A stretch of DNA of 64,000 nt, from assembly GCF_030704535.1 (NCBI RefSeq), contig NC_081816.1, positions 12,082,501-12,146,500 of the forward strand, given 5' to 3'. This document shows, piece by piece, positions 12,676-62,934 of the stretch (the stretch's first letter is position 1; each line of letters begins with the position of its first letter). This stretch comes from Vitis vinifera. Its lineage: Eukaryota > Streptophyta > Magnoliopsida > Vitales > Vitaceae. The notes under the pieces are model-generated. The model was not told the DNA's origin and did no database searches. It worked only from the letters and a program-made list of their open reading frames with translations. Both the position numbers and the translations under genes were made by a program.

Positions 12676-12678
12676 ACG

Positions 12679-39262: not shown

Positions 39263-39395
39263 AGTAGGCCAACATAGTGAAGAGCAGTGCGGCCTCCATC
39301 ATTTTTCAAATTAACATCTGCCCCTTTGCTAATCAAAATCTCCACAATTTTTGTTTGCCCATTGCTTGCAGCAGAGTGCAATTTCCATGGGTTTG
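39263..39395 (-). pseudogene. Ankyrin-repeat fragment (gankyrin / 26S proteasome subunit-10-like)
   Basis: Reads LHSAASNGQTKIVEILISKG, then ADVNLKNDGGRTALHY: one full ankyrin repeat and the start of the next, close to plant PSMD10-like proteins. It is in the opposite orientation to its neighbours. Confidence 0.65.
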
Positions 39396-39479: not shown

Positions 39480-39674
<195 letters not shown>

Positions 39675-39864
39675 GGGGAAGTTGTGTTTGGGGAACTCCA
39701 TTTGAAGGTTATATGGGAATGAAACCCATAGAAAGTGCAATATGGGTTTTGTCCATTAATGATCAGAATATATATTTTTTTTTATGCACTACATACTATT
39801 TCAAAAAGTTATTCCAAAATTGCCCTTTTGTTTTCCTTGTCAGCAGCCACCATGGTCTCCATGT
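39675..39864 (+). repeat. MULE left terminal inverted repeat
   Basis: Starts GGGGAAGTTGTGTTTGGGGA. Pairs with 62735-62924. Conserved blocks are at the tip, around 'atgcactacatact' and around 'gtcagcagcc...tctccatgt'. Confidence 0.88.
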
Positions 39865-40879
39865 AAGCAGCCACTAGTCTCCAAAATATTCCATGTAATA
39901 AGCACTCAAATCTGAACTGAGAAGAAGCTGATCAAAGGAAACACAGCATGAGGTATGTGGGTCTTCGTTCAGTGAGTTTCCACCTTCACGCAATAATCTT
40001 GTAATTTTTCCTCAGAAAAGGTGAAGAAGAAGACCATTTCTGCTAGTATGAATTTCCACCTTCAAGGAGTAATCCTGTCTTCTTCTTCACTTTTTCTGAG
40101 GAAAAATTAATAATAATGGTACCAGCAGAAAACCATTTAAATTCAACATTTCATCCCCAAATCAAATCAGAAGACTCTTCTATAACCCTCTCAACTCACT
40201 ATCTTGGTCCTGTAAACAAAGAACACTTAATTTGTTAGTCACAACACTCTTGAACCCTGTATTCTTAAAGTTTCCCTAAACCGAATCCTCATTGTGTAAC
40301 AAAAAAGGAAGCTTATCTAAGTAAATATTGGTTGCAAATTAACTAAACACTCTTCCTGAAGCATGAGACTAAACCATAACCTAGATAAAAAGATAGCAAA
40401 ATAAAAGAGTTAGCTTTTTCACTATAATTTCCAGATTTCTTATCCATATTAGATAGTTCAACATCGTTCCATACTTGTTTCTAAATCATTTCCTCACGTG
40501 TAGTTCCATTTTGAGAAATCATCTATGGTCATTTCTCAAGCATGTTTCCTGTGAACATATCATTGGAAGCAATGCATCTCAAAATATCAAATAATCTAGA
40601 AAAATAATAAACTTTACTTTTGCATAAGTAGAGTAGAATATGAAGATTTTTGTCAGTTTCGAAATGGATATGGATTCTTCATGAATTTTCTATAGGTAGG
40701 CATCCAACAGGCTAACCACTCACAGGGAGAAGTGGCCTGCATAAAATAGTTTTGTTGAACATTCCAATATTATGATTTCTTATTGCTTTTGTTGAGTCAT
40801 TTCCAATACCATTTCCTACTTCTTTCTTGTTCCTTTATTGGATGCCTCCACAATGTTTTCTTCAAAACTTTGAGGGAAA
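39865..40879. other. MULE interior, non-coding
   Basis: No gene recognised. Holds the hairpin at 40002-40109. Confidence 0.5.
40002..40109. repeat. 33-bp inverted repeat (hairpin)
   Basis: Arms 40002-40034 and 40077-40109 are reverse complements with one mismatch (core ttcctcagaaaaggtgaaga), loop 42 nt. The loop itself repeats the 'tttccaccttca' text found just before the left arm. Confidence 0.85.
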
Positions 40880-41400
40880 ATTCTCCCTTTTAGGTGTGGG
40901 TTTGAGGATTTTGATGAACATTTCAGCATTGTTAGCCCATTCTTCCGATGTTCTTCTGATGACCTAGGTTAAGTTTTGGCATAATGAGTAAATTTGAGAA
41001 TGTGTTTTTGGGAGAGAGTCTCATTTTTTCACATGGGTTTGAATCTGATTGATGATTTGGTGAGCATTTCTTAACTATATGGCTACTCATGAAATGACCC
41101 ATGTAAACTTTTGACTGTATCTATGAGAAAAAAAGGTCTTAGATTAGATAATTTTTCTGACCGTTTCTCCAATACATGGCCATACATACAAAGGCCCACT
41201 TCCAAGTTTTGGAACAACATGAACATTTCAGTGTATTTTTGGGAAAGTAGATAAATAAAGGCTCTCTTTTACATATGGGGTCGAAATCGATTTGATGATT
41301 TTGGTGAGCACTTCTCAATTATAGAATCATTCATCCCATGACCCACCTCAAGTTTAGGCATAATAATAATATTTTAGAAGGTGATTTTGGGAAGCAGTCT
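40880..41400. repeat. Degenerate threefold repeat in the MULE
   Basis: Three diverged copies of a segment with 'gggtttgaggattttgatgaacattt' and 'ccatgacccacctcaagtttaggcata', starting near 40900, 41030 and 41275. Confidence 0.5.
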
Positions 41401-43676
41401 CATATTTTAGGGACTGTACCTTAGGTACTACCTTAGTGGCCTTGAGATACTACCTTAGTGGCCTTTAGGTACTACCTTAAGGGCCCCTAGGTACTACCTT
41501 AGCTAAACCTTAACTCAACCTCTCATAAGCCTCGGGCCTTCCTCTCCTACCCTTACACAATCCCATCATGTGCTTCTCTTGAGTGCTCAAGTGGTCCACA
41601 AGTGCTTTTTATGGACTGTACCTTAGGTCCTACCTTAATGGCCTTGAGGTACTACCCTAGTGGCCTTGAGGTACTACCCTAGTGGCCTTGAGGTACTACC
41701 TTAGTGGCCTTTAGGTACTACCTTCAAGGCCCCTAGGTACTACCTTAGTTAAACCTCAACTTAACCTCTCCCAAGCCTCGGGCCTTCCTCTCCTACCCTT
41801 ACACCATCTCCTTATGTGCTTCTCTTGTGTTCTCAAGTGGTCCCAAAGTTCTTTTTAGGGACTTTACCTTAGGTATTACCTTAGTGGCCTTGAGGTACTA
41901 CCTTAGTGGCCTTTAGGTACTACCTTAAGGGCCCCAAGGTACTACCTTTTCTAAACCTCAACTCAACCTCTCCCAACCCTCGGGCCTTCCTCTCCTACCC
42001 TTACACCATCCAATTATGTGCTTCTCTCAAGTGCTCAAGTGGTCCACAATTGCTTTTTAAGGACTGTACCTTAAGTACTACCTTAGTGGCCTTGAGGAAC
42101 TACCTTAGTGGCTTTTACGTACTACCTTAGGGGCCCCTAGGTACTACCTTAGCTAAACCTCAACTCAACCTCTCGCAAGCCTCAGGCCTTCCTCTTCTAC
42201 ACCATCCCATTAAGTGCTTCTCTAGAATGCTCAAGTGGTCAACAAGTGCTTTTTAGGGATTGTACCTTAGGTACTACCTTAGTGGCCTTGAGGTACTACC
42301 TTAGTGGCCTTTAGGTACTACCTTAAGGGCCCTTAGGTGCTACCTTAGCTAAACCTCAACTCAACCTCTCCCAAGCCTCGGGCTTTCCTCTCCTACCCTT
42401 ACACCATCCCATTATGTGCTTCTCTGGAATGCTCTAGTGGCCCACAAGTGCTTTTTAGGGACTGTACCTTAGGTACTACCTTAGTGGCCTTGAGGTACTA
42501 CCTTAGTGGACTTTAGGTACTACCTTAAAGGCCCCTAGGTACTACATTAGCTAAACCTCAACTCAACCTCTCCCACCCTTACACCATCCCATTATGTGCT
42601 TTTCTCAAGTGCTCAAGTGGTCCACAAGTGCTTTTTGGGGACTGTACCTTAGGTACTACCTTAGTGGCCTTGAGTTACTACCCTAGTGTCCTTTAGGTAC
42701 TACCTTAAGGGCCCCTAGGCACTACCTTAGCTAAACCTCAACTCAACCTCTCCCAAGCCTTGGGCCTTCCTCTCCTATCCTTACACCATCCCATTATGTG
42801 CTTCTCTGGAATGCTCAAGTGGTCCATAAGTGCTTTTTAGCCACTGTACCTTAAGTACTACCTTAGTGGCCTTGAGGTACTATATTAGTGGACTTTAGGT
42901 ACTACCTTAAAGGCCCCTAGGTACTACCTTTGCTAAACCTTAACTCTACCTCTCCCAAGCCTCGGGCCTTCCTCTCCTACCCTTACTCCATCTAATTATG
43001 TGCTTTTCTCAAGCACTCAAGTGATCCACAAGTGCTTTTTAGGGACTGTACCTTAAGTACTACCTTAGTGGCCTTGAGGTACTACCTTAAGGGCCCCTCG
43101 GTACTACCTTAGCTAAACCTCAACTCAACCTCTCCCAAGCCTCGGGCCTTCCTCTCCTACCCTTACACCATCCCATTATGTGCTTTTCTCAAGTTCTCAA
43201 GTGGTACACAAGTGCTTTTTAGGAACTGTACCTTATATACTACCTTAATGGCCTTGAGGTACTACCTTAGTGGCCTTTAGGTACTAACTTAAGGGCCCTT
43301 AGGTACTACCTTAGCTAAACTTCAACTCATGCTCTCCCAAGCCTCAGGTCTTTCTTTGTGACCCTTAGACCATGCCATTATATGCTTCTCTTGATTTCTC
43401 AAGTGGCCCGCCAATGGTTTTTTGCTACTGTTCTTTAGGTACTACCTTAATGGCCTTTAGGTACTACCTTAGTGGCCTTCAGGTACTACCTTAAGGGACC
43501 CTAGGTACTACCTTAGCTAAACTTCAACTCAACCTCTCCCATGCCTTGGGTCCTTCCTTTGTGACCCTTAGACCATGCCATTATGTGCTTCTCTTGAGTC
43601 CTCAAGTGGTCCACCAATGGTTTTTTGCTACTGTTCCTTAGGTACTATCTTAAGGGCCCTTAGGTGCTAAATTTTT
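41401..43676 (+). repeat. 12-unit ~200-bp satellite array in the MULE
   Basis: Each unit begins near 'gggactgtaccttaggtac' (starts near 41411, 41612, 41858, 42061, 42255, 42459, 42639, 42840, 43044, 43223, 43430 and 43630). It contains three to five copies of a shorter motif 'ggtactaccttagtggcctt', then 'aactcaacctctcccaagcc' and 'cttctctcaagtgctcaag'. Higher-order structure: short repeats inside a longer repeat. Unit length varies from about 180 to 246. Confidence 0.95.
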
Positions 43677-43871
43677 TTTAAATTTTTTTCCTTTTATGAC
43701 TGTTATTATCCTCGAATGTTGTACACATATATGTTGTACACATATGTGAAGTACATACGTTCGTTATAAATTGCATTATAAATTCCATTATAAATTCCAT
43801 TATACTATGATTTTCATTATAAATATCTTATTTGATTATCAAATATTAACCAACTGCATTTATGTTAGCAG

Positions 43872-44139
43872 ATGACAAATAATCAAACATACTATGTAGT
43901 GTTTGTCGGTTGTAGACATGGAGTGTACGATTCATGGGCTGAATGTCAAAAGAATGTCCTACTTTATAAGGGGAGTGTTTACAAATCATATACTTCTTGA
44001 GAGGAAGTTGTCCGAGCTTGGGTTTTCTATACACCAAGATGGAAGGGAAGTGATGAAAGTTCAGCAACTGGCAAATCAAAGTTTGAACTTCCAGATGATG
44101 ATCAGCATTCCTTCCAAATTATTTCATATCCATATATAA
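43872..44139 (+). pseudogene. RNase H1 N-terminal hybrid-binding (Cauli_VI/RHBD) domain gene
   Basis: After an acceptor-like TTAGCAG the frame opens at ATG 43872: MTNNQTYYVVFVGCRHGVYD, then SWAECQKNVLLYKGSVYKSY and, after one TGA (expected CGA), EEVVRAW. This is the RNase H1 N-terminal domain (YYVV..GR..GVY.SW.EC...V..YKG..YKSY....EA), which binds RNA/DNA hybrids. It has 89 codons, a TAA stop, and no RNase H catalytic domain. It may be a second exon of a small gene carried by the MULE. Confidence 0.7.
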
Positions 44140-44984
44140 TCACTTTCTTTGTTGGCTTCTTTGTAGTATGTGTTTTGCATATTGTAATATCTAGCTTAAC
44201 ATAGGTGCTAGAAATGTGTTATGAATATCAATGTGTAGTATTGTATTTATTAGAACTCGCAAACAATGACCTTTGTGATTATTATTATCAGTTTTCGTAA
44301 ATAGAAAATGCTCACTCAACGGTTGGTATGCCATGGGTACCACAACCTAAATATATCGGAAGAATGGCATGGGTGCCCAAAGGTTGAGAGGGGCCTTTAT
44401 ATGGAACTTATACCTTATGCCATGTTTGATTAACAATGAGATACGATATAATATTGTACCTCCCATCATTTCTCATCTTCGTTTCAGAATTAAATAAAAT
44501 AATAAGTGAAATAACATATCCACCTCATTCGTTATCCTTTATAAAAAAGATTTAATGATATTGTTGAGAGCAATGAGATATACACATCTCATGGATTATA
44601 AATTATTTTCTCTAATATTTTCTCTTTTATTTATTTATTTTTCATGTTGCCCCACTTAACAAAACAAAAAAAAACTTGAAAATGTAATTTTGTTTATTTA
44701 TATTAATGAAGAAACAAAAATTACCTATTATATTTTTTCTAAATCCAAAAACTAAATCCCAAGATGAAGTATGTTTTATCACATCTATTTTTATTTCTTT
44801 GGTCATTCAAACACTAATACAATAACAAACACGATATCTTCGATATTAGTGTGTATTAAAAATAATATTCATAGATATCATATTATAAAATAAATAATAT
44901 CTTAAAATATGCATATTACATATTCAATCAACCAAATATACCAATGATTTTACATAGCCAACCAACCAAATCTATCATCAGCAT
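44140..44984. other. MULE interior, AT-rich, possible MITE
   Basis: No gene. 44415-44945 has weak inverted ends (catgtttgattaa / caatcaaccaaata) as in small non-autonomous DNA elements. A block at 44345-44380 ('ataccacaacctaaatata...gggtgcccaaag') recurs at 47155-47195. Confidence 0.3.
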
Positions 44985-45745
44985 TTTCCAAACTGGAGAA
45001 TGACATTTTCATGCTCCTGACCAGCAACTCCATTCTTTGCAGAAACAACCAGCTGAAAATTCTTTACTGATGCAACTGTCACCCGTCCACTAAAGTTCAG
45101 ACACCAGCATTGGAGTTGCTCATGCCACCTAAGGGCCAGTTTTTTCAATACCAACATTTCATCTTTTCATCTTTTGGACTAGAGAAAAGCCTAAAATGCA
45201 AACTCTATGTTCGGATTGATTTTGATCTGAAAAATTGGAAGGATGGAAATGATTTGACATTGCTAAGAATAAATTCAGGTTGGATGTGGCCCACTCATCC
45301 TGGCTCAATGGCATTGGCAGGGATGGAATTCATGACACAATGCATTCTCCTTGGACCCCTGCTTTTCACAGGATGAAATTTTGAGTTAATACATATAAAC
45401 AAAACATTTTCCTTATAAAAAAATAATTTCCTTACTACTTTCTTGGTACCAAACATAAGGTAAAGCTACTATAGTCATAAGATTTTTATTCTCATCTTTA
45501 CCCATCACATGTTCATGTCTCTTTCTAGCCGAGGGAGAAGTTGAAGGAACCTCTCTTACCTGGTACCCAAGACATTCAATTCATATGAAATGTGGCCTAC
45601 AGGATAGTTGCCAGCAGGGACTCTAGGGGAGACTTGTCTTGAACCCAGTCGCCTGATTAAACGAGATTCACTAATCCTTGCTCCTACATTTGGAGGTTGT
45701 GCATTATAGACAGTGAACTTCGTTCCCCAAAAGTTTGACCTAGCA
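44985..45745 (-). pseudogene. Captured TUBBY-like (TULP) gene fragment with intron
   Basis: Two exons on the minus strand. Exon 45560-45745 reads KFTVYNAQPPNVGARISESR, RVPAGNYPVGHISYELNVLG, ending CCAG|GTAAGAG. Exon 44985-45358 begins after TGAAAAGCAG and reads GPRRMHCVMNSIPANAIEPG, then decays through stops and frameshifts in the [20 protein letters not shown] region. The intron (45359-45559) keeps both splice sites. This is part of the Tubby domain, which binds phosphoinositides at the plasma membrane in intact proteins. Intron retention indicates capture as genomic DNA, as in Pack-MULEs. Confidence 0.85.
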
Positions 45746-46955
45746 GCAAGGGAAATGAGCTAGTCAAAGCGGGGCTAACATCATCAGTGAGAAACAACCA
45801 CCTCATATAACAGGTACATATACCTCAACTTTCCTATACAAGTGGTGCTCCCCTTCTAAACATCATCAGTATTAAGAGAGATGATATCGTCTATGCAAGT
45901 AGGACGTCTACAATTCCATGCAGCAAGAAGAAACTTTCCATCATCAGTTGAAGCTATCAACAGATAAGACAAAAGCAAAAAAGTTAAAACATTTACAGCT
46001 TAAAAAGGAAACTCGGAAATAGAACCTATCTTCTAAAAACCTGTCTACTAAATATCCTACTTGGTAATTAAGAATGAGGACATCTAGCTCTTCAACAATC
46101 CAACCATGCAACTAAATACATCAAATGACCCTAGATCATTACAGGTTCTATATGCAAGAAAGCCTTCATTAATGAACCACAACTTATCAAAAAATAAATG
46201 GAGTTTAGTTATTCACCTTGAATTAAGCCGAGATAGAGATGATATGTTTGGTTGGTACGATTCCATTTTATATAACATTGAATGAAGGAGCCCCTTGGGG
46301 GGGGGGGAATTGATTTTCATATATGACCTTATAAAGGGATGGGAAAATGTGTTGAAGATTATAAACATCCAAACAAGTAGCATTAAATTACAACAATCAC
46401 TAATAACAAAGCAGCAGCTAACAAACCCTCCAACCACCCCCACCCCAACACACATAGAGAACTTCAAATAATTTATAATGGCATGCCTGCAAGTGTCAAA
46501 TATTCAAGAATCATAAAAATTAACTACATAAACTAAATTGGTTTAGAAGACTAAAATTCATTTATAAGGATAGAAACAACTTAATCCACATTGTTCTGCA
46601 TAATGACACTAAATGTGACCCCAACTCTATATTGCTTTTAACTGAAACTTTTGATCCTGCCCTACAAAATATTTTTATTGATCACTATTAATCTGGCACC
46701 TTAATGCATTAGTTGATATAAATTTTTTTTTCAGTGTCGTTTTTTCACAAAAATTTTGAAAGTGGACTATCAAAGTAGTAAACTAATGGCACTTCCTTAG
46801 TCTAACATTGCTATAAAGGACAAATCACTACGAGTTTCCCACTGATGGTATCAAATAAATTAAAATAACCGGAAAAGCTTGACAAGAAACATAAAAATAA
46901 AGAATCAAAATCTTACTTAAAAATTCCAGCTTCATCTCTCATATAGCAGAATTAC
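45746..46955. other. MULE interior, no recognised gene
   Basis: Contains a run of ten G at about 46300-46309. No homology seen. Confidence 0.5.
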
Positions 46956-47044
46956 CTTGGCCAAATAGTAGGTAGAATAGAAAGCAATTTCTTCAACCTA
47001 GGCAATGGTTTCTCATATTGCATGGCTCTCATAGAACTACGCAC
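46956..47044 (-). pseudogene. Possible captured exon, unknown source
   Basis: An 89-bp open segment bounded by an acceptor TTTGCAG and a donor CCAAG|GTAAT on the minus strand, reading RSSMRAMQYEKPLPRLKKLL. It looks like a real coding exon but I do not recognise the gene. Confidence 0.35.
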
Positions 47045-47624
47045 CTGCAAAGAGGTCATGGAGTAACCTCTTTAGCTCAACTAAAATTTCATATACCAAT
47101 GTATTTTTTATAGTCAGTGGTAAATTAATCTAAAAGCACCTAAAAGAAGGGGAGATACAACCCAAATATATCAGAAATATGCAATGGGTGCCCAAAGTAA
47201 AAATGGTAAACCAAAAAAACCAATTATGATGTATCTATATAGTTTTTAGAGAGCTCCGGTATTGGGCATGCCTAAATTTACAAACAAAAATCAAAATAGG
47301 AACAGTTATATTGTAAAGTCTGAGTCATGATGAGAATGTCTTATAATCACATCCCTTTCTCCAGCAGCCACGATTTCGAAGTGTAACATTGCCCTTGTCT
47401 TCGTCATGGTGTCTTTATGGTTGTCAACCATCTTGTTTTCCAATTGTCGCCTGCAATTAAGAAAAAATAATAATAATAATAATAATACCAATAATGATGA
47501 GAATAAAAAGAAGGGAAAAGAAGGTGACATGAAGCTAAGAAGTAGTTTTATCTAAAACACAGAAAATATAGTAGATAATAATAGTGCAACCTAAAACTAA
47601 TTTGAGCTTCACAATAGCATAGAG
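47045..47624. other. MULE interior with (AAT)n microsatellite
   Basis: 47466-47488 is an AAT repeat. A minus-strand open segment at 47320-47455 after TTAATTGCAG may be another captured exon (RQLENKMVDNHKDTMTKTRA), source unknown. Confidence 0.35.
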
Positions 47625-47865
47625 CGCTCCACCTTCTGATTATGGACTGTCAACACCACCAGCCCCACTCTCATGCAAGTAAGGTCCCATCAGTGACCTT
47701 CCATATTGCAGGTGGCCTCTATTAATCACATTTGACATGCCTTCATGACCTTCTCTCTAGCATTGTTTGTGACACTAGTAACTAAGGTAACGACCAGCCT
47801 TAGTTGATATAGATGCATCTTGTCCTGCACAACACACCAAAATCATTGCCCGGTTTGGTCAAACA
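47625..47865 (-). pseudogene. Second copy of the last Ulp1-like exon
   Basis: Closely matches 49347-49590 over about 240 bp (shared 'ccaccagccccactctcatg', 'gatgcatcttgtcctgca'). It is a direct duplicate lying downstream of the gene, with the RH38 fragment between the two copies. Confidence 0.8.
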
Positions 47866-48314
47866 TGTAGTACTCCGGATGATTTCCAAAATCTTTTAAA
47901 AATTTTCTACTATCCTATATAAATTAACGCTCAACCAAATCAATCATAAAGGAGACTTGACCTCTATTATTTGAACCCCAAAATGATTTTCAATTTTTGA
48001 GATTAGGATGTTGTCTTTTTCACTGCACATCCAATTAAAAACAGCTCCTATAAAATCATGTAAAACAAATCCGTTAGAATGCTATACTTTTTTCTCTTTT
48101 TTTTTTTGGTGGGGGAATACAAAAATTTAGAATCTAAGCTTCAAATGATTGGCAACAGGAGAATCAAACTACATTATTGATTTCCCATATTTGAAACAAC
48201 AACGAATCATGGGATCAACAACAAACAAAGAGGCATAATAATTACATTTCAATGGAGGAAGTATTACGTCAAGCATAAAGTAACAACAACATAAGCATGA
48301 CATTAAGAACATAC

Positions 48315-48658
48315 CCTCTGCGGCCAAAACGTCATGCCCTCCCATTTTTATGCAAGTACACCTCATAGTCAGGCTCTGCCTGTGTCCCATATTTAAGCGG
48401 TAGATCATAATTGACATCCAAATTCACCTTCACAAACAAATTTGAAGCAATTGCCATTATGAAAATTCATTATCAGTACAGGGAATAAAAAATTACTCAA
48501 AAATCCACAAGTGCTTTGTGTAACATTCCTGCACTATTCTTCGTACTGACAAAAATAATTTTTTGCCCCAGCTTATGTCATAACTCAAAAATTTTGTCTT
48601 TAATCACAAGCATCTTGGAGAGTTCATCAGGGCATTTCACCTTACACTGCTTCACAGA
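48315..48658 (-). pseudogene. Captured DBP5/RH38-type DEAD-box helicase fragment
   Basis: Two exons on the minus strand. 48497-48658 after CCTTGCAG reads SVKQCKVKCPDELSKMLVIK, DKIFEL, then (after a stop) LGQKIIFV and MLHKALVDF. 48315-48428 reads VNLDVNYDLPLKYG and EPDYEVYLHKNGRA, then a TGA and RFGRRG. This is helicase motif IV to VI of the nuclear-export RNA helicase family LOS4/RH38. HRIGRAGR is degraded to HKNGRA plus a stop. Several exons between the two are missing, so it is a rearranged capture. Confidence 0.82.
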
Positions 48659-49346
48659 CTGCAAGGATAGTTCTTATTTCTTTACAAACATTTAATGGTA
48701 GAAAGCTTTTCTTGTAATGTAATTTTTATCTGTATCGTTGAAAGTAGCAGAAAACAGAAGCACCTAATGAAATTCACAACACAACAAAAAAAGGAAGTCG
48801 ATAGTATGATGGTAGCTCTTTCACATGATACTAACAACTTTAACATAAAGATCCAAACCATCCAAGAAATGAGAACTTACAACTGGCATGTGCAAGTGAG
48901 ATCGCATTAATGAAGAGAACCTTGGTCTTTTTTTGTTCTTATTTTCTTAGTTCTTTCCCATCTTACAAACCACCTCCAGATTCTATACCATTAAATTTCT
49001 ACTAATAAAGCCTAAATGCTCAAATATTCAAACAATAAGCCTCTAAATGTTTCAGCAGATATAATTTTAGTGTAAAGTTTTCAGTAATAAACTATCAAAA
49101 TCATTTGACAAGGTACTTATCAAAAATAAAAAAATTAAAAAATAAAATACTTCACGGGGTATTCATTCTAGTGTGTGTCTTCTCTTGTCAAAACTCGCAA
49201 GGACACTCATCTATTGGCTTAGTTCATATGTATTTAATTGTGATTCCAAGAAAAAGTCTACTTTTATGCTTGAATATTTTTTATTGGAAAGGTAATTCCC
49301 TCAAATATAAATTTTCCAGAGAAACAAACAACATTAAAAAAAGTAG
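48659..49346. other. MULE interior, no recognised gene
   Basis: AT-rich, nothing identified. Confidence 0.5.
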
Positions 49347-52300
49347 AGGGCTCCCACCTTCTGATTATGCACTGCCGACACCACCAGCCCCACTCTCATG
49401 CAAGTACGGTTCCATCATTGACCTTGCCTGTCCAAGGTGGCCTCTATTAATCAAATTCGACATGCCTTCAAGACCTTATCTCTAGCATTGTTTGCCGCAT
49501 TAGTAACCAAAGTAACAACCAACCTCAATCGATATAGATGCATCTTGTCCTGCATAACACACACCAAAATCATAGGGTGGTTTGGTAAAAATTCAAATAA
49601 ACCAATTTCTAAAGTCTTGGTTGCGCTTACCTTCGCGATTGAATGTGCTAGTGTCGCCCCGTTCCAATGTTCCATGTACTTGATTGCGAGCATGCCACAT
49701 ATTTACACCAATCATATGCATACATCAAGCATAAAAGACAAATACATCAGTACCGCATATCTAATGATACATAAAATAATAACGGTTAAAGTAATCTACC
49801 TATTTAGTTGTTGCACAATTTGGGGTTGAACATGCACAAATTTTGAGACCTCTAATCGCCTGAGCATGGAATGCTTTATCCATTGCCTCAAACAAATGTC
49901 TCAATACGACACTTATCCTGTAACCCCTTCTTAAAGGCAACGAAGATAAGATTTTGACCCTTGAAGTTGGAATATTGACCACGTGCACGTGCCAATGGTT
50001 GTTGTCGTAGACTGGAAAAAATAGCTACACACATATTGATGACATTGCCATTAATAGGTTAGTAGGGCACTATAGTATGATAATTAAATGAAACAAAGGC
50101 TTTGGCCATGATGTCATTGTACTAGGTTTGACGTACCATATCACAACTTGAGAAATCATGGCCCACAAATTCAGCATGAAGGATCATCCGACACCGCTCT
50201 CTGATTTCATGCTTTTTGGCATTTGTCGTAAGGCTGGCTAGCACAACCTGTCCATTTGTTCTTACAGCTCACCACATAGTCTCCAATTTAAAATAATAGA
50301 GAAACGCATTAAAGAATTATGATTCAAGCCTCACGGAGAATGATGGGTCGAAATAGTGTGCATGCGGTGGTCTAGCTTATTCTACATTCATCATTCGGCA
50401 GACCACTCCGATAATTTGAAAATGTACACATGTAAATGACCAAAAAACATAATAATGTGCTTCTTATGTAATGACCATGGCCTTAGTCGAAATCTTGACA
50501 TATACCACACTATTTACCCAACAACCTCCATTGAGCGAAGAAAGCTCATCCTGTGTTATGTATGTGCCATGCATATCGCACAAGATTTCGCTGCAATGTC
50601 AAAATGTGTTAAGTCAATAGCCATAAACTTTAACAATAATGTTCACTTTAACAATAAATGGTGAATTCATGTCAAGTACCTTGGCTCACCATCTTCCGAC
50701 AACTCATAATCCGTAACCAACCTTTCTTGTTGGCTGATTTTAGGAAATAATTGAACACATTGAGAGATGAAGGGGGATTTGCAAATGACGGCTGGCTTGA
50801 CAAACCTTTTCGCTGTGTGTTTAAATCTCCGCCGAGGGGTAGGTGTAACTTGTTTGCTGCCACAACCTTCTTGAACACCCACTTGCACCCCTTTAGGTGA
50901 TTGCAATTCAACACTCTTTTGTGAATGTGGGCATGTGTGGTGGTCAATACATGCGCCATCATCTACTGCTGCACCGGTGACTCTTTGCTGGCCCGAATGA
51001 GTGCTTAAGGCACCGGTTCCTTTTCCCATCGTTTCATCACTACAAGGATGCACACCGGTGCTTCCCTCGTTTTTCTTCCTTTCTACATTCACAGCTTCTT
51101 CTAGTGGGGTGAGTGCACAGCCACTTTGTCCTCCACTTGACCTTGCACATAGTGTGGCAATGTCTTGTGCCATAGATGAAGCGAGGCTCATAAGATGTTT
51201 TAAATTCCGATTCAGCCGTGCTTCAATGGTCTAGTGTTAGGAGGAAGGAGTATCAATTAGCACGGTCAACTAGAATGAGGATGGTGCTCAAGTTTGTTTG
51301 TGAAGTAATAAAGTCGTAGTGCCATAGCGTACCTTAGTTGGGTCATCAGAGTGTGAGCTGCCCGTCTCGTATGGACGTCCATCATTATGTGCAGAAGGTT
51401 CGCTTCCCTGTATAACCTACCCATACATCAAACAAACATTGATGATTACATTTGAAACATAAATTAATGATAACACCAAACTACGTTTATGGAGTTGCTG
51501 AATTTTACCATACTTGGACATGACCATAATTGCCATAGGTGTGTATTTCGGCAGCCAAGCGCCTCTTGACTTGATCATCTGTCCATGCAGTAGAAAGTGG
51601 ACTGTGGACTTCAACTTGGAAAGCTATCATATAGAACTTGGTGATATAGAAAAGCTGTGAAGTGGGAATCAAATATAAGTTGGTTAGAGAAGCTATTACA
51701 ATATCAACAAAAGAAGAAATTATTTTGGTAGACGCATATGACATTAATGTGGAGAGGTTGAGAAACGAATACCTGAAGAAACAAGACACAACCTCTAATG
51801 TATGTCGGGTGACTTGTACGATAGTCCCTTATCCCATCCTCGACATATTGGAGAACAAACTTGGCCCAATTTTTGCACACCCCCACTTCACTATCCCAAA
51901 CCGTGTCCCACAAGTCATGCATTCCTTCTTGTTTTGAGTAAGGGGCAAGGATAGTGGCATAGGCAAAAATGAGGAAGGACTTCATGAATTCTTCGCCAAC
52001 TGGTAGATCATGTAAATTAGCTTCCAATATTTTGATGTCGTATGTGCGGTTGGGTGTGCCACGCCCATTGTAAATGAGAATGTCAACGCCATTGTCCGGG
52101 ATGCCCAACACCTCTCTAACATCTTTGGGCGTGACTGGGACAACAACTTTTGTTTACATACATAAGCGGTGGTAGCCAATGTCGTAATTGGCGACTATCC
52201 ACGTTATTAGCTCATAACGCAATTCTTTATAGCCAAGCTGCAACAAGCCCCCGACTCCCATATCACTGATCACATTTTTCTTATCCAATGGGAGAGTATC

Positions 52301-52353
52301 CAGGATTGATAGGAATTTCTTTCCCGAGCAGTGAGATTTTGGTAACTTAACCT
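49347..52353 (-). pseudogene. Ulp1-like (C48) cysteine protease gene of the MULE, multi-exon, decayed
   Basis: Minus-strand gene of the KAONASHI type; intact relatives resemble SUMO proteases. Exon 51780-52353 carries the N-terminal plant domain (LPLDKKNVISDMGVGGLLQL; VPVTPKDVREVLGIPDNGVD; FAYATILAP; NWAKFVLQYVEDGI; RGCVLFLQ) with one TAA. Further exons lie at about 51512-51655, 51330-51415 and 50667-51235 (low-complexity linker). The protease part follows: EILCDMHGTYITQDELSSLN at about 50500-50600, the catalytic His segment NNHWHVHVVNI at about 49960-50000, and the Cys segment CGMLAIKYMEHWNGATLAHS at about 49630-49697. The last exon (DKMHLYRLRLVVTLVTNAAN) is at 49347-49590. Stops between exons 50140-50400 suggest loss of function. 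Exon limits are approximate. Confidence 0.75.
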
Positions 52354-52917: not shown

Positions 52918-52951
<34 letters not shown>

Positions 52952-55331
52952 GTTTATTTATAAAAGAAACTTAATATTAAATATTGTATGCAATATTTTC
53001 ATTTTATACTCCATTTTGAACCATGCATTGGACATGGCTGATGAAATTGATGCTAATACAATCTTGGTGATACATTGCGTATGATGCCATAAGTGGTTAC
53101 AACCATCTTTTGATGGATCCATATTCGCAGATCATAGGAGTTGCTTAGTCTGAAACTATTTCAGATCAAGCCGACCAAACAAACCATTAGTCCAAGGCCA
53201 AAGTGAACTGATGGTGTATGATTCAAAACAAGTTGATGTAGACAGGGAAAAAACAATGGAAAAGCTTATAAGTTGTGGATTTTGGAACAAAGCTGTGAAT
53301 TGGATAATGTTGACCATTACAAATTAAATGGCCCAATATTCCATGATAAAATAAAGTATAGGATATATTAGTATAAATAAAAAGACATTACATATGGACA
53401 TAGGCATTAATTGATTAAACATCTAAACAAACATAGAAATAAATATAAATGGAATTAATTAGATTGCCTGTGTTAATACAGACAAAACTGATGGGGAAAT
53501 AATAAATTATACTAAAGCACATTCAAAGGACAGATTCGTACAATCCAAATGTTGTGAAGCACGCATGTCATATAATTGTAAATTTTTAACTTAACAGTCC
53601 TGCTTCATTTGATTGCAAATGGAAGGGAGAGAAAGAAGATTTGAAATTTTACATAGAGAAGTTGTAATCATGCCACTTTGTAAAGAGAAAAAATTTCGTT
53701 GCAGAATTGGATTAGAATTAAAAGAAACTTCATTGATGCAAATACCATGAGGGATTTTCTATTAAAGAGAGAGCAAAAACAGGTTACAATTTTGGAACTA
53801 AAAAATATATGTAGTACTCAAACCAGAAGCAAAATTTGAGATCAAGTGTTTTTTCTTGAAAATAAAAGTAAGGAAGCATTCATTAATTGGTTGTTTTAAA
53901 AATATATCTTCATATGCACCATGTGCTAATAAAGGACACAGAGCCAGACATCAAAATGCTTGGTCCTCATAATAAAATAATTACAGCAATTGAAGTTCCA
54001 ATCTGTTGCATGCATGTTATGGGTTGCCTTGTTTTGAATTTGCACCAGAAACAGCAAAAGATAAAAGACGAAAATATCACATTCATGCCTTGAGGAGAAT
54101 GGTGAAAATACATCCAAGAAGCTTATTAGAGAGTATACATGATCATAGGAGAACTTCACCCCCTCAGGTATATACCATGAAAATGAACATGGAAAAAACG
54201 CGTCACCTATCAGTTGGGACTGAATATGGAAATTTAATACAATGCCTTTAACAATGACCCAAATTTTCCTACCATTGGCTGATAAATTTCAGGCCCTATT
54301 TGGATTGAAATACTGTTAAAAACGTAGATTCATCAACATGTTTCTATAATTAAATAGGGCAACAAAAAAAATTTGCAGAATGAAAAGAGTAACACCTAGA
54401 TGGATTTATACAAAATGTAGATGACAAGACAACAAAGAAAATAATTTGCTCGACCTGCCATGTCAACTAGGTGCAACATAAACAAATTACACAATACAAA
54501 GAGACCATTAACTTCATCCACTGCTCATAAGAGGAAACATGCATTCATGGAAGTAGGAATGGTTGTATATTATGAAAAATAAAAAAAAAACCAAACGTAA
54601 ATATGTGCTTACCCTTAGGAGTTCTTCAGGCTCTATGAAGGGAGTCTTTCTCTTGCAATGGTATCATAGATGGAAACTGCCTGCAGAAGTGGCTGGAAAG
54701 CCTATGGAGGTCTAATACAAGCAGGAAAGGGCACTCCATTACTATCAATTTAAGGTTATGAAACATACTATACAAGACATGGTCATAGTTGATGCTGCAT
54801 CAGAAGACAATAAACATGAAGAGTATAGCAAGGAAACAACAAAGATGTATGGGAAGAGGCTGATCAGACTCAGCAGAAGCATAGCCATATTTTGCCATAT
54901 ATTGGGATAGTAGCAAGAAATGTCTTGTGAATGACAGTTTTCCAATATGTACCTTTGTTGTCTCTATGTCTGTAAATGATGGATTTTGTTTTACAACCTG
55001 TATAAGCTTGTTTAGTACAACTATAACATTTGTTCAAGTATTGTACAACACAGTTCTTAATAAATGGGAGCTTGATATTTACCATATACCTTAAATTGGA
55101 ATTAAAAAGTACACCACTATATGGTTTTCAACAAAATTAGCCTACTAAGAAATTAAGAAAAAGGAATTATGATAACAATCTTGATGTAATACTACCCATT
55201 ACAACACACCAATGATAAGTGTTACATATGTGTTCTTGGTTGGAAATAACCTTTAGAAGAGTGTTCAAAACATGTAATGGATATACAATGGAACATAGTT
55301 TTAGTCAGGGAAGAATGTGACAGCATTGCCC
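52354..55331. other. MULE spacer between protease and transposase genes
   Basis: About 3 kb, AT-rich. (AAT)n at about 52918-52951. A possible exon-like stretch at 54620-54700 on the minus strand (AVSIYDTIARERLPS-like, frame broken) is not identified. No other gene seen. Confidence 0.45.
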
Positions 55332-57668
55332 TTAAGACAAAGGGTTCTTGCACGTTTTACTGTTGTGCCCGGAAGTATGACATCTTGAGCAATAGACAGT
55401 CCGTTTATCTTGGAATTGGGACTCAATGTGCTTCTTTCTTGGTTTTCCGGGAGACCGCTTGGTATGGGGAGGGTTAAGAGAGAGGAAAACTTCATCGGTG
55501 ATATATTGAACCAAACCATTATTATTGACCATTGGCATGTCATGGGTCTCTATACCGAAGAAGGAGCTCGAGTAAATCAGCTCTTGCATTGGGAATTTGT
55601 ACCAATCTTGAACAAAATCAACAACATTCTGACCGATGGAAAGAATAACGGTCGCCGCATGTTCACAAGGGATGTCCAACATTTCCCAACCCCTACATGT
55701 GCAAGTACGCTTCATAATGTCAACATTCAAAAAGGTGGTTCCGATAGAAACCCCAAATATTCCGTTCATGAAAGAAGTGACCGGATACACCTTACCCTTG
55801 GCAATATTCTGCTGCATTTTTTCTTCAATTTTTGGTCCTATACATCCCTTCCAATTGTTTGATTACTCTTTATGTTTGACAAGCATAGAACCTAACTTAG
55901 CCATATGCTCCATTAGAAATGTATAAATGGAGTGATGTCTTTCATTCCTTAGCCAAGCATTAAACGACTTGACAAGGTTTGTGGTCATTTTATCCCATCT
56001 TTGCTTTGGGAATTTGGACATAGCCTAATGTTTGGGTTCATTTTCTTCAACCCATTTGGCCAAATTGTCATTGTATTTCCGTAGTTCAAACATGGAAACA
56101 TTGTAATCATGCTCTAACCTTGCATATGCAATACTATCAAGGAATTGGAGTGCATTTTCTTTACCTTTGTTCCCTCTTGTGTTATGTTTGCTCAAGAAAG
56201 AGTTGAAATTTTCTTTCAAGTGACGGTAATAGTAGGTGTGGTTTTCAAGCCCAAACACTTTAGGAACACTACAAAGGAGAACGGGATGTCTATCCGAGAT
56301 AATAACGAGTTCCTTATCTCCAACAACCTTCTTCAAATTTTGCAAAAACCAAGACCAATCATCATAATTTTCTGAGCTCATCATGCCAAAGGCTAAGGGG
56401 AACATGGCGTCATTAGCATCGTATGCGGTCGCCGAAAATAACGCACCCTTATATAACCCACTCATATGGGCAGAGTTAATAGCTATGATTGGCCGACACC
56501 CCATTGCAAACCCTTGGATAGATACTGAATGAGCAACAAAGAGTTGCTCAAAATGTCCATCACTTGAATGGCCCAACTGAACAATGCTTCCCAGATTTGT
56601 TGCAACCATTCTCTCACACATCTAAGGCAACAATTTGTAATAATATTTGGGTTCCCTATAAATGAGCTCATTTTCCTTTTCCTTGATATTCCATGCTTGA
56701 AGATACGTCAATTACATCCCATGTTGCCTTTGAAATTCCTTACAAATTTGGCGGGGTTGGTAATCAGGAATGGACCGGATGACATCATCAATAATCAATG
56801 AAGCCCGATTAGATCTCACTAAAGGTTGGCATGCAACAACATCTTCCAAACTATGATTATGGTGGTTATGAAAAGTGTGAACTTGAATGATGTTCAAATC
56901 CCCAACTGCACGAGTTGTGACTTTCTAAGGACATTTAATAACTATGCAAACAACTGTCATGTGTTTCGTACTATTCCTCTTGAAGCAATAACGGAATCTA
57001 CCAACAATTGACATCAAATAAACAGCATCACGGAACTCGGTAGCATTGGGGAAGGTATGTCCACTACCCATAATGGAATTTTCAAACCGCCTTGAGTCAC
57101 GTCCAAGCATATTTGATTCTGCACATCTATGGGAAAACCCATATGACTCAATTGTAAGAGAGTAATTACAGATATCAATTAGCAGATGGCCACCGGAGGG
57201 AAGTAGGTGTGCGGAATTCGAACCAACAATAGGAGTAGGGGCACTACAAAGGAAAAAAAATAATTCATCCATCTACATATATTTGAAGAAAAGTTAATAA
57301 ACATAGTGGATGTAATGTTAGGAAGGCTATCGGTACCTATTTGGTGTTATAAAACCTTCAACAACTTCACTTGATGATGAGACATAGATGTGACAAAACA
57401 TTTCGTTGAATCAAAACATCTTAAGTAGGGATGCATCATCATGCAACGGTAGTAGACATGATGGCTCAAACTTGATCGTGAATTCCAATTTGATAGAATT
57501 CTGGTCAAAGTGTAGTTCATCACACAGTTTTGAAACGAAATCACTATGTGACATATGCCGGCTAACAATCATCGATTCGATACGACCACCCTGATATTCA
57601 ACAGACACTCCAACACATTTAACTAGTTGACCATCTTCATGAATGTAGCAGAACATGTCCTCTTCCAT
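55332..57668 (-). pseudogene. mudrA: mudrA-type MULE transposase, nonsense-disabled
   Basis: Catalyses cut-and-paste movement of MULEs. Start ATG at 57668 (MEEDMFCYIHEDGQLVKCVG). Domains in order: N-terminal region; an intron about 57250-57337 (AAATAG|GTACC to TTTGTAG); MuDR/FAR1-like DNA-binding domain (GHTFPNATEFRDAVYLMSIV); MULE transposase DDE domain (GALFSATAYDANDAMFPLAF; DDWSWFLQNLKKVVGDKELV; IISDRHP; RHLKENF); SWIM zinc finger (TCTCRGWEMLDIPCEHAATV) at about 55660; and a C-terminal CCHC knuckle CSRCHTSGHNSKTC. All segments stay in one frame, but there are six nonsense codons (at 57411, 56925, 56712, about 56622, 56025 and about 55818-55850). The first catalytic Asp is Asn (AIDSAH-type motif reads AINSAH) and the conserved CYRHL Cys is Tyr. 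Confidence 0.92.
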
Positions 57669-60600
57669 CACCTTAATTAAATAGAAACTTGTTACAAAAA
57701 AAAATGACAACAAAAGTAAATAAGGATTATGTATGAATATAATGATGAAGGAAAGAGGAAAAGAGAGAATGGAGAGAAAGGCCATAAAGGGGTCATCCTC
57801 GGGCCATGTGATGGCAATCGAACGTTTAAGATTTTTTTTCTTAGTGACATAGAAGACATAGAGGAAACGAGGGAGCATGGAATGAAGGGCCCCTTTCTAT
57901 ATTCAAATCCCTAATATATACATATATCCATAATCTAATGCCATGAAGTTGCTCAAGGAATATGAATGGTGGCTTCCTCTCTACCCACCTTTCCCATGTC
58001 CTCATCTCCAACCGATTTTCTATGTTTCTTTCCACTTCCATTCCTCATCATCCTAAAAACATAATTACATCTTATAACAGTTATCGAAAAGTACCTATTA
58101 CCAGGGACAAGACAGTAATAGTTAAATGATCCCACATATCGAAGAGGGACATTCTTTTTATGCAATTACTCTATGACTCTAACTCTCACTCTCATGTACA
58201 TAACTTCTTATCTTAACTTCGTAGGTGTATACCTAGGCCTAATGTGTTTATACATGGAACTTGATTCGAAAGTGAAAAGTCCATCGTATCTTCACAAAGA
58301 TTTCAATAAATCCCATATTATAGTTTTTTTCGAAATCAATTTATATAATGCATCAAATTCGTTCATAGAGTTAATATTCAATCACCTCATCCTTTCAAGG
58401 TAAGAAATTGAAAGCAATTTTGGTGGACAAAGACAAAGCAAAAATATGTGGTAAACAGTGAGTGATTAATGGGGGTGACTATAAACAAATAAGTTATTGT
58501 CTTAGTGAACATAACAGATGATAATAGTTTCACAGTTAGGAAGAAAAGTTGATTGCAGAAACATCACAATAATTATGGGTTTTCCCTACATTTGCATGAT
58601 GTTCTCGCAAGAAAATGAGAGAGAGACAGAGACAGACACACAGAGAAGAAAGAAGAAGGAGCATAGGAAAAAGAGAATACCTCAAAAACAGTTCCCAAGT
58701 AATCTATGAATGCTAGAAAGTTGGTTTCTTCAAAAAGTCCATATATATCTGTAGTCCAACAAGGAAAAACTGAGAATAGGAAGAGAAAAAGGGACAAGGG
58801 AGGAATTTAAAAGCTTAGATATAGTACATAATGAATAAGCTAAGAAGGATTAATGTTTATTGTAAATAACATAGGGCTCTTCTGGTATGTTTGAATAAGA
58901 AAAAGTTAAAGTCACTTATCTTTGGAAATAAGAATGACAACAAAATAAACATTTTATATAGGTAACATTTTTGCCCTCTCCTAAAAATTAAAGTGGAAAC
59001 CTACTAGGATCCCACCCCCAACACTTTGCTACCCCAACCAGGTTTCAAGGGCTATGAAAAGGAAGGCCAGAATAAGCATTGAAGACAACTTTTAAGAAGC
59101 AAGAACTAGCAAGAAAGAATTTGGAAGCTAATATAAACAAATCTCAATCAAATTACAGCATATACCCTGACTATGCAGATTCTATCACTCAAAATATTAT
59201 GTTCAACTATTGACCATTAAGCATGTGAGTAGAGGTGGCTAGAAACAACATGACAATGAAGGGTTGAACCAAACATGAAGTTGGCTGGCAATGAAGGATT
59301 CATATAGCAGTACCAGTGAAGTAGCTGGATCAAAGACTAGTTGAATTAATTTGTTAGGTATATGTAGATATAATATCGTCTCTGCAACATATTGTGGTAA
59401 GTATCCAATATGAACTTGAAGTTGTACTTACTAATAGATAGTGCAGGCATGTGACATTCTATATAGGATTGGTGAACAGTCTCAGAATCTAAGATCATGT
59501 TTGGTAGAGAGACAAATGGACCACAAATTTATGAGAGGACAAGATTGAAAGTTTGCATAAAGAAAATCTCTAAATTAAGGACATATTGAATAGTTGACTA
59601 GGAGATTACAAGAGGAAAGAGAGAAGTATGGCTTACGAGCCGACCATGCGTATCTTGATGTATTTGGAAGTGAAGGAATAAAACAATCTTTGATGATGTT
59701 GATCAATCAGAATTGTACTTGAAAAATGTTTTCCTCAATTTTTTGTTGAATGGTCTGCTACATCAGTAAGAAATAGAAGCCTTTCTTTTGTAGATTTCAT
59801 TTGATATTTCAACTGCTACTTTAAGGATCAAGGAGTTTAATTTTCCCCCTGTTTTTTCGTTTTAAAATCCTTATGAATATCACAAGTACTAGGGAAGTGC
59901 CCTCTTATTGGCAATTGTTTCACAACATTATAAATATTATAAAAACATTCAATCAAGTTCAAGTTAGGCTTAGGTTGTTTGAACCTTGACCTAAACCCAG
60001 CCCTGATTAAGTTCAGGAAAAAAAAACCTAATTTTTGCCCAACCCGAGTACTAAAAATGATTGTCCAAGTCTACAGGTTGGGTCCGTATTCTGCCCAAGT
60101 CAACCCTAACTTAATATCTATCTAATTATACTTCTTGTCATAAATTTTAAAAATAAAAAATATTAATATTTTTTTTTATATGAGATACAAAAGTTCTTAA
60201 AAATGTAATGATTTTTAAAATTATTTAAATAAATTGAGATATCCAATATTTTTACTATCTCAAATTATAAATTTCCAAAAAAAAAAAATTCAAAATATAA
60301 CGAAATTTTAATAGATAATTCTCATATTAAAAAAAATTAAGAAATATATCCAAATTGTAACTATCATTTTTCCTTATTTATATGAAAATTAAATAATTTT
60401 AAAATATATAAATCTCTTTACTAATTTTAATTATATTTAATTTTTCATATTTCAAAAACCAAACACAAAAATATAATTTTTCTGCATGTTTATTTTTTCA
60501 ACAACCAAACATAACATAATTAAGACTTCGATGAATTTACTTTGATTTCAAACACAACGAATGAAGTGAATGAATTAGGGACTGATTCTAAGCAATAATG

Positions 60601-62734
60601 TAGAGAATGGTAGTTCACTATCAAAACAAAAGAAGAAAAGGAAGGAGGAGGTGAAGAAGAAAGAAGAAGAGAAAAAGCCTTAGGTGCACTTACTACATTC
60701 CACTTATTTGAAGTGACTAAAGAAATTGTTGACAAATATGCAGTTGTGTAGGAGTGCAAGATGCAGTATCCAAATAAACCTCTTCCAACTCCCTGCATGC
60801 GCAAAAAGTCCACTAACTCATCCTATAACCATAAAATCTTTGTCAACAAATCTACACTTCTCTCCACTATTTATTTATCATACTATCATCTATTTTCATT
60901 TTCACCAATGTACAAAATGGTCTAATAGATAATTGGGTTCTAGACTGAAAATAATTTCAATCTTAGCTTTCACCCATTAAGCTTGAAATCCATGATCATA
61001 AGTTGATGGGTGTGTCTTATTCACACATACACATTGCAAGAATCCTCAGCTAATGCTGTTATTGGAAGGAATCAGTGGGTGATGACTATGATTGTGACCT
61101 TAAGGTCCCACTAATAATTAAACATCCATCAATGAAGGAACACTTATACCGGGTATGACATGGAATTCTGAAAATCCATGACTCATAAACAACAAGGTTT
61201 ACCATGTGGGAACCTTGTTCCTATGACTTATAAACTCCCTTTGTTTTTATTGGTGGTGCTTTAGGCGCCCTTTGTACACTCCCTGTGTAATTTAGGGCAC
61301 TTTTGGCATTTCTCATGTTTTTTCCCCCTCAAAATAGGAACAACTGTCCATGCACCACAGGGGCTTCTAAAAAGCTGGGATTTTAAGGAATTTCTTCTTG
61401 TTTGTAGTTTATACGTCTAGTGTTCCTTTTACTCCAGTTTAATGACAGCACAAACCACTTATAAGCTGAATTCTTTCATTTTCTTTATGGAATACATTGT
61501 ACTATCCTTTCCCAGGGAAAATATATGTATATAATAGAAAAAGAATTGAATACACCATTTGCAGCAGCATGAACATGAATTGTGTATGCATTTCTAAGTA
61601 CCTTTGAACACTTGTAAGTAGTTAGAAAAACATATATTGTATCTATAACTATTACCATAACGTAAATAGAAATGGCTCATGCGTCCATTTCAGTTTCTAT
61701 CAAATATAAGATGCAAACACTTCAAACAGTACCTATTCTAGAGACACAAAAAAGTTCAATATCCCTTGCATGATAGTTGCATTCAAAAGTTTGCCAACCC
61801 AAAAAAAAAAAAGTGCAAAGAGAATCATCAAATTTCAAAACTAATACAAAAAGTACAAAATAGGTATCACGTGGAAGATTAGAAAATCCAAGTCAACATG
61901 TTTATATCATCAGAGAACACAAGGTCAAAGTATTACCTTATCAAAAACAGGTAGTATGTGTTTGTTTAAATAGTTGAGGAACTTGTTGTTTGATGCACCC
62001 CTCTGTGTGGAAACCAGGGCTTTAGTTGAACAAACAAATATAGAATGAACCAAATAAGGAGAAATAAAAAACCAACAGAATCTATACCACAAAAAAGGCA
62101 AAAGACACAATATATTATCAGCTGATTTAATAAAAATTAAGATGGATAATTAATAAATAATAATTATTTATATGGAGCAAATTGTTCTCATCATTTCTTT
62201 CCTCTTTTTTTTTCATACTAAATCTAAAACTCAAAAGGGTGACCCACTTCTCTCGCTCAGCCATGAAGAAGCCCTTTTCTGAAGTTGCTCTCCAGACGAC
62301 AGAATCCTTAAAAAGGCCCTATTTTCCTCTCCCACTCTCAATCCTCGTAGGTACTAATCTAATCACCTTATTAATTTTTTTTTTTTGAAACCCCCGTTTG
62401 ATTCCCAAGAAAATCCATCCCCCATTTTATTTCCGGGATAATTCATCCTCGTTTGATTTCCAAGAAAATCCATGCAAAACCCTCAAGGAAAACAAAAAAA
62501 AAATTGTTTCCAGAAACCTTCAAAATATTGCACCTTTGATGAACAAAGATGAAGAAATGGCTCAACTTTGGCTTCATTGAAGGGTTTTCGGAAAATGCAG
62601 ATGGGTTAGGGCAAAGTGAGAGGAAGTGACAGAGTTTTCCCAAATTTCTAACTTTATCGGGTCGGATGGGTCTTGCAAATTTGATAACTTTTATGTTTTA
62701 GATTTTTGTGTCTATTAAACGCACAAGGTCAGAT
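57669..62734. other. MULE right flank, non-coding
   Basis: About 5 kb between transposase start and right TIR. GA-rich stretch 58610-58680. Possible exon-like open segments on the minus strand at 58690-58770 (TDIYGLFEETNFLAFIDYLG) and on the plus strand at 62262-62345 (MKKPFSEVALQTTESLKRP) might be captured exons, but I recognise neither. 60120-60520 is extremely AT-rich. Confidence 0.4.
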
Positions 62735-62924
62735 GACATGGAGAGGGGGCTGGCTGCTGACAGGGATGCAAGGAGGGGTATTTTTGGAAATGCAATTACA
62801 AACAGTATATAGTGCATGAAAAGGAAAAAAAATATGAAATAGTGGACATCTCTTGAGTTACGCAAACTTCAGTTTTCAAGACAATAATATTGAGAAATGG
62901 GCCTCCCCGAAACACAACTTTCCC
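62735..62924 (-). repeat. MULE right terminal inverted repeat
   Basis: Read on the minus strand it begins GGGAAAGTTGTGTTTCGGGG and shares the blocks of the left TIR in order (tip; 'atgcactatatactg'; 'ctgtcagcagcc...tctccatgt') over 190 bp. Confidence 0.88.
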
Positions 62925-62925
62925 T

Positions 62926-62934
62926 TTTTTTTTC
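62926..62934. repeat. MULE target-site duplication (right)
   Basis: TTTTTTTTC, matching 39666-39674, after one extra T. Confidence 0.7.

Follow-up and report, generated by a model that had tools for sequence, protein, structure and literature searches.

Large Mutator-like elements (MULEs) with a ULP1 region have been known in grapevine since 2008, and the element described here, which occupies positions 39675–62924 of a 64,000-nucleotide stretch of Vitis vinifera DNA (RefSeq contig NC_081816.1, 12,082,501–12,146,500; the whole stretch is referred to as the window), is a large new one. The sections of Benjak et al. (2008; PMC2528002) available to us describe grapevine MULEs as long as 17.7 kb, several families with ULP regions, and also transduplication, and Table 4 of that paper gives Mutavine-18 as 16.2 kb long with terminal inverted repeats (TIRs) of 230–263 bp and a ULP-1 region, and Mutavine-1 as 17.7 kb long with TIRs of 70 bp. 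As far as these sections go, the Mutavine families share with the window element their type (Vitis MULEs with TIRs), a MuDR-type transposase, many deleted copies, a ULP1 region that lies, in several families, downstream of the transposase and a 9-bp target-site duplication (TSD) where one was found. Compared with Mutavine-18 and Mutavine-1 by their Table 4 descriptions, the window element measures 23.25 kb, with TIRs of ∼200 bp, and a relative in the same genome, copy C, ∼31 kb without its inserts.

Three further systems are relevant. KI-MULEs (Kaonashi) of Arabidopsis also combine a MULE with a Ulp1-type gene; they are non-TIR elements in which Ulp1 runs opposite to mudrA (PMC2528002, sections available), whereas the window element has TIRs and its two genes are co-oriented. 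VANDAL elements of Arabidopsis resemble it, by description in the accessible text of Hosaka et al. (2017; PMC5735166) and Sasaki et al. (2023; PMC10398659), in carrying non-coding arrays, built of a tandemly repeated short motif, that vary fast between copies, and a second gene that is conserved in one part and changes fast in another. In these accounts VANC, an anti-silencing protein, binds the short motif, which has accumulated as tandem repeats in VANDALs, such non-coding repeats diverge fast and RNA-directed DNA methylation targets non-coding regions. VANDALs are described as non-TIR in the portion available of a 2026 review (PMC13317346), in contrast to the window element; according to the same portion, Ulp1-carrying KIU elements act like the VANC system. 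Pack-MULEs, like the window element, hold host-gene fragments between MULE TIRs (here exons and introns of a tubby-like gene), and the window element differs from them in having transposase and Ulp1 genes of its own; in the part of PMC6431247 available to us, no Pack-MULE of Jiang et al. (2004) is longer than 7 kb. Our literature search, outside which most subscription papers lay, found no title or abstract opening describing the array or the tubby-like gene capture reported below. A 2022 EMBO J paper by Sasaki and co-workers reportedly, to judge by its title, concerns anti-silencing of Mu-like transposons in eudicots, and parts of the idea put forward here for the array may already be published there.

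Structure and copies of the element

Positions 39675–62924 are one MULE of the TIR type. As a whole, the locus is best explained as a formerly autonomous, now dead TIR-MULE with host-gene cargo, a reading that we consider quite probable. Its limits are as follows.

39675..62924, minus strand (the transposase and Ulp1 genes are on this strand): whole Mutator-like element, 23,250 bp, delimited by TIRs and by collinearity with copy C
39675..39878, plus strand: left TIR, ∼204 bp of inverted similarity, from end-to-end alignment and genome matches
62722..62924, minus strand: right TIR, from alignment of the ends
39666..39674, plus strand: left TSD, TTTTTTTTC, read from the flank
62925..62934, plus strand: right TSD, a run of nine T followed by C, longer by one T than its left counterpart

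The original prediction, made from the letters of the window alone, had placed a MULE with TIRs of about 190 bp at these positions, and the TIRs, a transposase relic and copy C with both its ends bear it out. Inverted local alignment of the left and right ends scored 56 over ∼204 bp, compared with at most 22 for 300 shuffles, with 149 of 194 aligned positions identical (77%); the corresponding figure in copy C is 148 of 187 (79%). Two of 300 random window pieces scored 48 and 53 in the same alignment because such pieces overlap the hairpin-bearing left stretch. When the whole window was tiled into 318 pieces of 400 bp under the same scoring, the right end itself came top at 56, followed by two pieces overlapping the left stretch (53, arising from a local hairpin at 40002–40109) and by pieces that overlap or adjoin the right end (33 and 26); all others reached 26 or less. 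Similarity of the ends beyond chance, on which the prediction had staked itself, was thus found at ∼200 bp, with shuffles and all other tiling pieces remaining below 56. A MURA-type transposase with a MULE domain, TIRs and a 9-bp TSD place the element in the Mutator superfamily. The same T-run plus C had been claimed for both flanks. In copy C a perfect 9-bp TSD, TTGTAAATA, borders termini equal to those of the window element; in the window the right flank reads TTTTTTTTTC, which matches at eight of nine positions at the exact end, or at nine of nine if the T at 62925 is taken as extra.

Genome searches covered a 495.6-Mb assembly of 21 contigs (C6, C7 and so on below). The search of the Vitis genome that had been proposed as a check gave, for the left end, at least 40 scored matches including itself (from 64 first-look candidates), with the full-length copy C among them. 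The copies read were the window element and, of the 39 remaining matches, the seven that headed the list; 20–30 kb were read behind each of these seven left ends, extended by a further 20 kb in two cases.

C6, 10.90 Mb: copy A
C7, 18.80 Mb: copy B
C6, 8.79 Mb: copy C
C17, 5.98 Mb: copy D
C13, 2.53 Mb: copy E
C7, 17.38 Mb: copy F (L024, L025)
C17, 0.92 Mb: copy G

Copy C spans 8,790,878–8,838,719 on C6 (47,842 bp), and both of its ends are as in the window element. It is interrupted by two later inserts, without which it measures ∼31 kb. The insert of 11.1 kb resembles a long terminal repeat (LTR) retrotransposon, with inner direct repeats of 92–95% identity and a 5-bp duplication; the insert of 5.4 kb has a 4-bp duplication and no repeats longer than 100 bp. 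The window element is collinear with copy C except for 43703–45766 and small gaps, the shared stretches being 39675–41682, 45766–54091, 54212–59480, 59477–61643, 61639–62096 and 62393–62926 (the last in three pieces). Identity over them is 91–96%, except for 78% in the last 0.3 kb (62602–62926); the right end may be of different origin. Copy B is collinear up to window position 54219, beyond which similarity is lost, and its right end was not found within 50 kb. Over 45766–54091 the window element, B and C are mutually 93.5–94.6% identical. Copies A and D–G have the left end and a tandem array (described below), and neither a transposase nor a Ulp1 match was found within the 20–30 kb read; the right ends proposed for A and E are not accompanied by a matching TSD.

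The length of the window element had been thought very large for a MULE. It is not exceptional, given the 47.8 kb of copy C and the 17.7 kb reached by published grapevine MULEs, and a chromosome-scale grapevine assembly reveals whole MULEs of 23 to ∼31 kb. Later nested insertions were ruled out as the reason for the size of the window copy, since 45766–62926 is, small gaps excepted, common to copy C. It is also highly improbable that the 23 kb are a chance composite in which the ends of two different MULEs enclose unrelated DNA. The divergent last 0.3 kb looks as if the right end were foreign, but copy C, with both ends in the same order, a collinear body and a perfect TSD, already contradicts such a composite, and the joined flanks fit a single exon of a gene on C8 that we take to be UPL4. 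The composite was rejected.

Transposase, Ulp1 gene and captured host-gene DNA

The domain scan covered all six frames of 43.7–62.9 kb, and the body of the element contains the following.

55335..57668, minus strand: MURA-type transposase relic with DBD_Tnp_Mut, MULE and SWIM domains (Pfam, tblastn)
49454..52303, minus strand: decayed Ulp1 (Peptidase_C48-like) gene (tblastn with Vitis proteins P0021, P0050, P0067 and P0093)
47620..47863, plus strand: first arm of an internal direct repeat (85%)
49344..49590, plus strand: second arm of this repeat, overlapping the 3′ end of the Ulp1 gene
44984..46304, minus strand: captured fragment of tubby-like F-box protein 3 (TLP3), residues 117–371 of the 405 of P0110, with introns kept and stops
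43890..44006, plus strand: fragment of an RNase H1 N-terminal domain (Cauli_VI), 41.9 bits against a cut-off of 21
61934..62050, minus strand: weak API5-like stretch, 20.5 bits, below the Pfam cut-off of 27.4

The transposase and the Ulp1-like protease named in the original prediction are both present as relics. All three transposase domains (PF10551, PF03108 and PF04434) exceed their Pfam cut-offs, and the segment 57668–55335 is 81.9% identical to Vitis protein P0001. Its main part (57272–55335) has five in-frame stops; in copy C the same part is broken by two stops and a change of frame, and dN/dS between the two is 0.61. At the MULE-domain site IIAIDS-HMSG the window has N, whereas copy C and all 11 relatives covering the site have D (12 relatives were aligned, one of them gapped here). 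The changed Asp is presumably the first catalytic Asp of the domain.

The Ulp1 gene lies downstream of the transposase in the same orientation, and Vitis gene models P0021, P0050, P0067 and P0078 fuse transposase and Peptidase_C48 domains. By tblastn with the Vitis fusion proteins, the Ulp1 part was found at 52303–49454, with the HWH region and a later Cys region included, making this a Ulp1-bearing MULE; pieces matching those of the window are also present in copies B and C. The first exon has dN/dS values of 0.25 (compared with C) and 0.29 (compared with B), the middle exon 0.85 and 0.95, respectively, and the short HWH exon 0.90 and 0.77, derived from 15–17 changes.

Several captured genes had also been expected in the element. 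TLP3 is certain and the small RNase H1 N-terminal piece passes Pfam (E = 1e-10, with a single in-frame stop close to where the match ends), but the API5-like match falls below the cut-off. The tubby domain matches with E = 5e-23, and TLP3 is the closest relative of this piece among the matches listed (the best 120 of 1235, the top one of which is unnamed). Read along the minus strand, from 46304 down to 44984, the exons of P0110 keep their order and are separated by introns, and the piece contains stops; the gene may have been taken up as DNA, i.e. by transduplication. Copies B and C retain only TLP3 residues 117–188; the break lies at window position 45766, inside the next intron, and beyond it these copies have a common block of ∼6.6 kb. 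In copy C, of which the minus strand was scanned, this block holds SINA, ribonucleotide-reductase and GH32 (invertase) pieces, the SINA piece being flanked by two ribonucleotide-reductase pieces. Because TLP3 in the window continues past the break point, the window would show the older arrangement here, and the B/C lineage would later have swapped the 3′ part of TLP3 for the block with the SINA, ribonucleotide-reductase and invertase pieces. The host-gene DNA thus differs between lineages at one site, between array and body, and the family shows captured gene DNA exchanged there.

The tandem array and its 13-bp core

Between the left end and the captured DNA lies an array that the original prediction had noted as a satellite.

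41419..43703, plus strand: family array of 22-bp units, in groups of four that with 136 bp form a 202-bp higher-order repeat; core AGGTACTACCTTA

The array is not a passenger of the window copy. It belongs to the element family and is common to all eight copies read, in which it begins 1.2–1.7 kb inside the left end. Unit counts within the first 16 kb of the copies are 38 (A), 62 (B), 69 (C), 21 (D), 46 (E), 263 (F), 42 (G) and 48 (window), 589 in total, with nearly uniform orientation (0–3 reverse matches per copy). Five of the array-bearing copies lack a transposase match in the stretch read. In copy F, with no transposase match in the 30 kb read, the array has expanded to 13.4 kb (∼263 units). 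Arrays of this kind may have been collapsed in older assemblies.

Conservation within the unit is uneven. Over the 589 units, the 13 positions of the core AGGTACTACCTTA are 93–100% conserved; of the nine other positions, eight are 48–77% conserved and one 93%. With a looser cut (610 units, 28 of them unassigned), nine unit types were distinguished that differ in their flanks and have a common core consensus; minority letters within types amount to 3.0% in the core (226/7566) and 4.7% outside it (246/5238). A control with 77 full-length matches to the 202-bp repeat (29 from copy F; shorter matches dropped) put conservation at 97.6% in the core, compared with 90.3% elsewhere in the units and 91.2% in the 136-bp part, so that the core varies about four times less than the remainder of the repeat. 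Only 0.58% of 5000 random circular shifts reached the core difference, which is about the share of the unshifted phase itself (1 in 202). An 11-bp near-palindrome, AGGTA-C-TACCT, lies within the core. Three core matches with up to two mismatches occur outside the array in the window, and neither TIR contains one.

In these respects the 13-bp core resembles a protected protein-binding site. By analogy with VANC on VANDAL arrays, the array is a candidate cluster of binding sites for an element-made protein, most likely the product of the Ulp1 gene, that would keep the element from being silenced; we would give this proposal a little less than an even chance. Non-autonomous relatives would then retain the array to respond to the element-made protein. 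The fuller proposal is more tentative: that a grapevine TIR-MULE, outside the non-TIR VANDAL group, possesses a complete self-addressed anti-silencing module, in which a Ulp1-type protein would read a 13-bp site repeated 21–263 times and autonomous and non-autonomous array copies would jointly escape silencing. A VANC role as something demonstrated by sequence was rejected, the reading resting on analogy.

Two other accounts of the array were weighed. It may be passive, a minisatellite grown by slippage whose even core reflects concerted evolution only, which we regard as unlikely, although it deserves serious attention. The spread of unit number from 21 to 263, homogenization in 202-bp blocks and a core as variable as the spacer or more so in two of the nine unit types are what such an array would show; concerted evolution should, however, level all 202 bp, yet the 13-bp core is about four times less variable than its flanks and the 136-bp part, and it is common to nine unit types whose flanks differ. 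Somewhat less likely again, the array may consist of sites for transposase binding or transcription control rather than of an anti-silencing target. Its constant place near the left end in eight of eight copies, its retention in five copies without a transposase match and the near-palindrome, as a dimeric protein would read, suit this explanation, but the core is found in neither TIR, where Mutator transposase-binding sites are known according to the part of PMC3310237 available to us.

Several observations count against the picture of a once autonomous MULE protected through its array. The window element's own TSD is imperfect and lies within a T-run. The Ulp1 domain scores below the Pfam cut-off of 20.7 bits in the window (14.7 bits) and in copy C (19.9 bits) and gives no Pfam match in copy B, so that none of the three copies tested passes. 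The array was checked in eight of the 40 scored left-end matches, and the other 32 may differ; moreover, copies D–G share one deletion and may be a single lineage, in which case perhaps three lineages have retained the array. Within unit types, core and spacer differ modestly (3.0% compared with 4.7%), and in two of the nine types the difference is absent or reversed. Finally, the element has TIRs, whereas VANDALs and KI-MULEs are described as non-TIR. The preferred reading of the array as an anti-silencing target nevertheless offers a concrete pair of motif and gene with which to ask whether anti-silencing through tandem arrays extends to Mutator elements beyond the VANDAL group.

Insertion site and other repeats in the window

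The flanks of the element contain pieces of several genes.

39584..39674, plus strand: UPL4 fragment, part before the element (match to the C8 gene)
62935..63211, plus strand: UPL4 fragment, portion following the element and lacking two introns (match to the C8 gene)
39022..39147, plus strand: NMD3 SH3-domain fragment in the left flank mosaic (domain search)
39271..39381, minus strand: ankyrin fragment in the left flank mosaic (domain search), with an adjoining CCCH match below the cut-off

The predicted insertion inside a UPL4 fragment holds in that the flanks align across the junction to a single exon of the C8 gene; it is incomplete in that the fragment is intron-less, stands in a mosaic of gene pieces and bears a weakly supported name. 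The PDB search gave a TRIP12 match of 22.5 bits (E = 0.001), ranking below repeat proteins of no weight, and Pfam gave only a sub-threshold armadillo match. Joined, the flanks match the C8 gene in 99 of 106 columns of exon 1, 128 of 132 of exon 2 and 141 of 148 of exon 3. Because both GT-AG introns of the C8 gene (∼116 and 113 bp) are missing in the window, the fragment would have passed through RNA before the element inserted. The transposase would then have cut the element at its TIRs and inserted it into the already intron-less fragment, creating the duplication. Removal of the element had been expected to rejoin one UPL4 reading frame. It restores exon collinearity, but the joined flanks have eight T at the site, compared with six in the C8 gene, leaving the frame off by two nucleotides.

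That the element interrupts a working UPL4 gene is thus extremely improbable, and this was rejected. The fit of the joined flanks to three exons at 93–97% would favour it; against it, both introns are gone at GT-AG borders, the reading frame is shifted by two, the window shows only part of the gene, NMD3 and ankyrin pieces adjoin it and the closest match is on C8.

To the left, a very abundant repeat (40 scored of 4692 candidates) ends near 38713 and is followed by the NMD3 and ankyrin pieces. The mosaic formed by 38713–39674 and 62935–63211 (NMD3, ankyrin and intron-less UPL4) looks like RNA-mediated gene capture. Exon 2 of the UPL4 fragment (62948–63035) has seven more genome matches at 86–88%, one of which (L041, on C11) adjoins DNA similar to window positions 36796–37008 and 37701–38179. 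No domains were found in the right flank (63200–64000, six frames) or in 36500–38800 (three plus frames).

The window contains further repeats at a distance from the element. A second tandem array, with 26-bp units in both orientations, lies at 29287–31616 and 35035–35392; inverted arms near it (33099–33394 with 34072–34367, and 32741–33004 with 34647–34910) possibly mark a second array-bearing DNA element. Long direct repeats at 10451–12676 and 17633–20123 (89–91%) perhaps belong to an older LTR-type element, and within one of them is a 241-bp tandem duplication (18185–18667, 99% identical). Direct repeats of 552 bp at 2616–3167 and 7858–8409, 99.3% identical, resemble the LTRs of a young retrotransposon.

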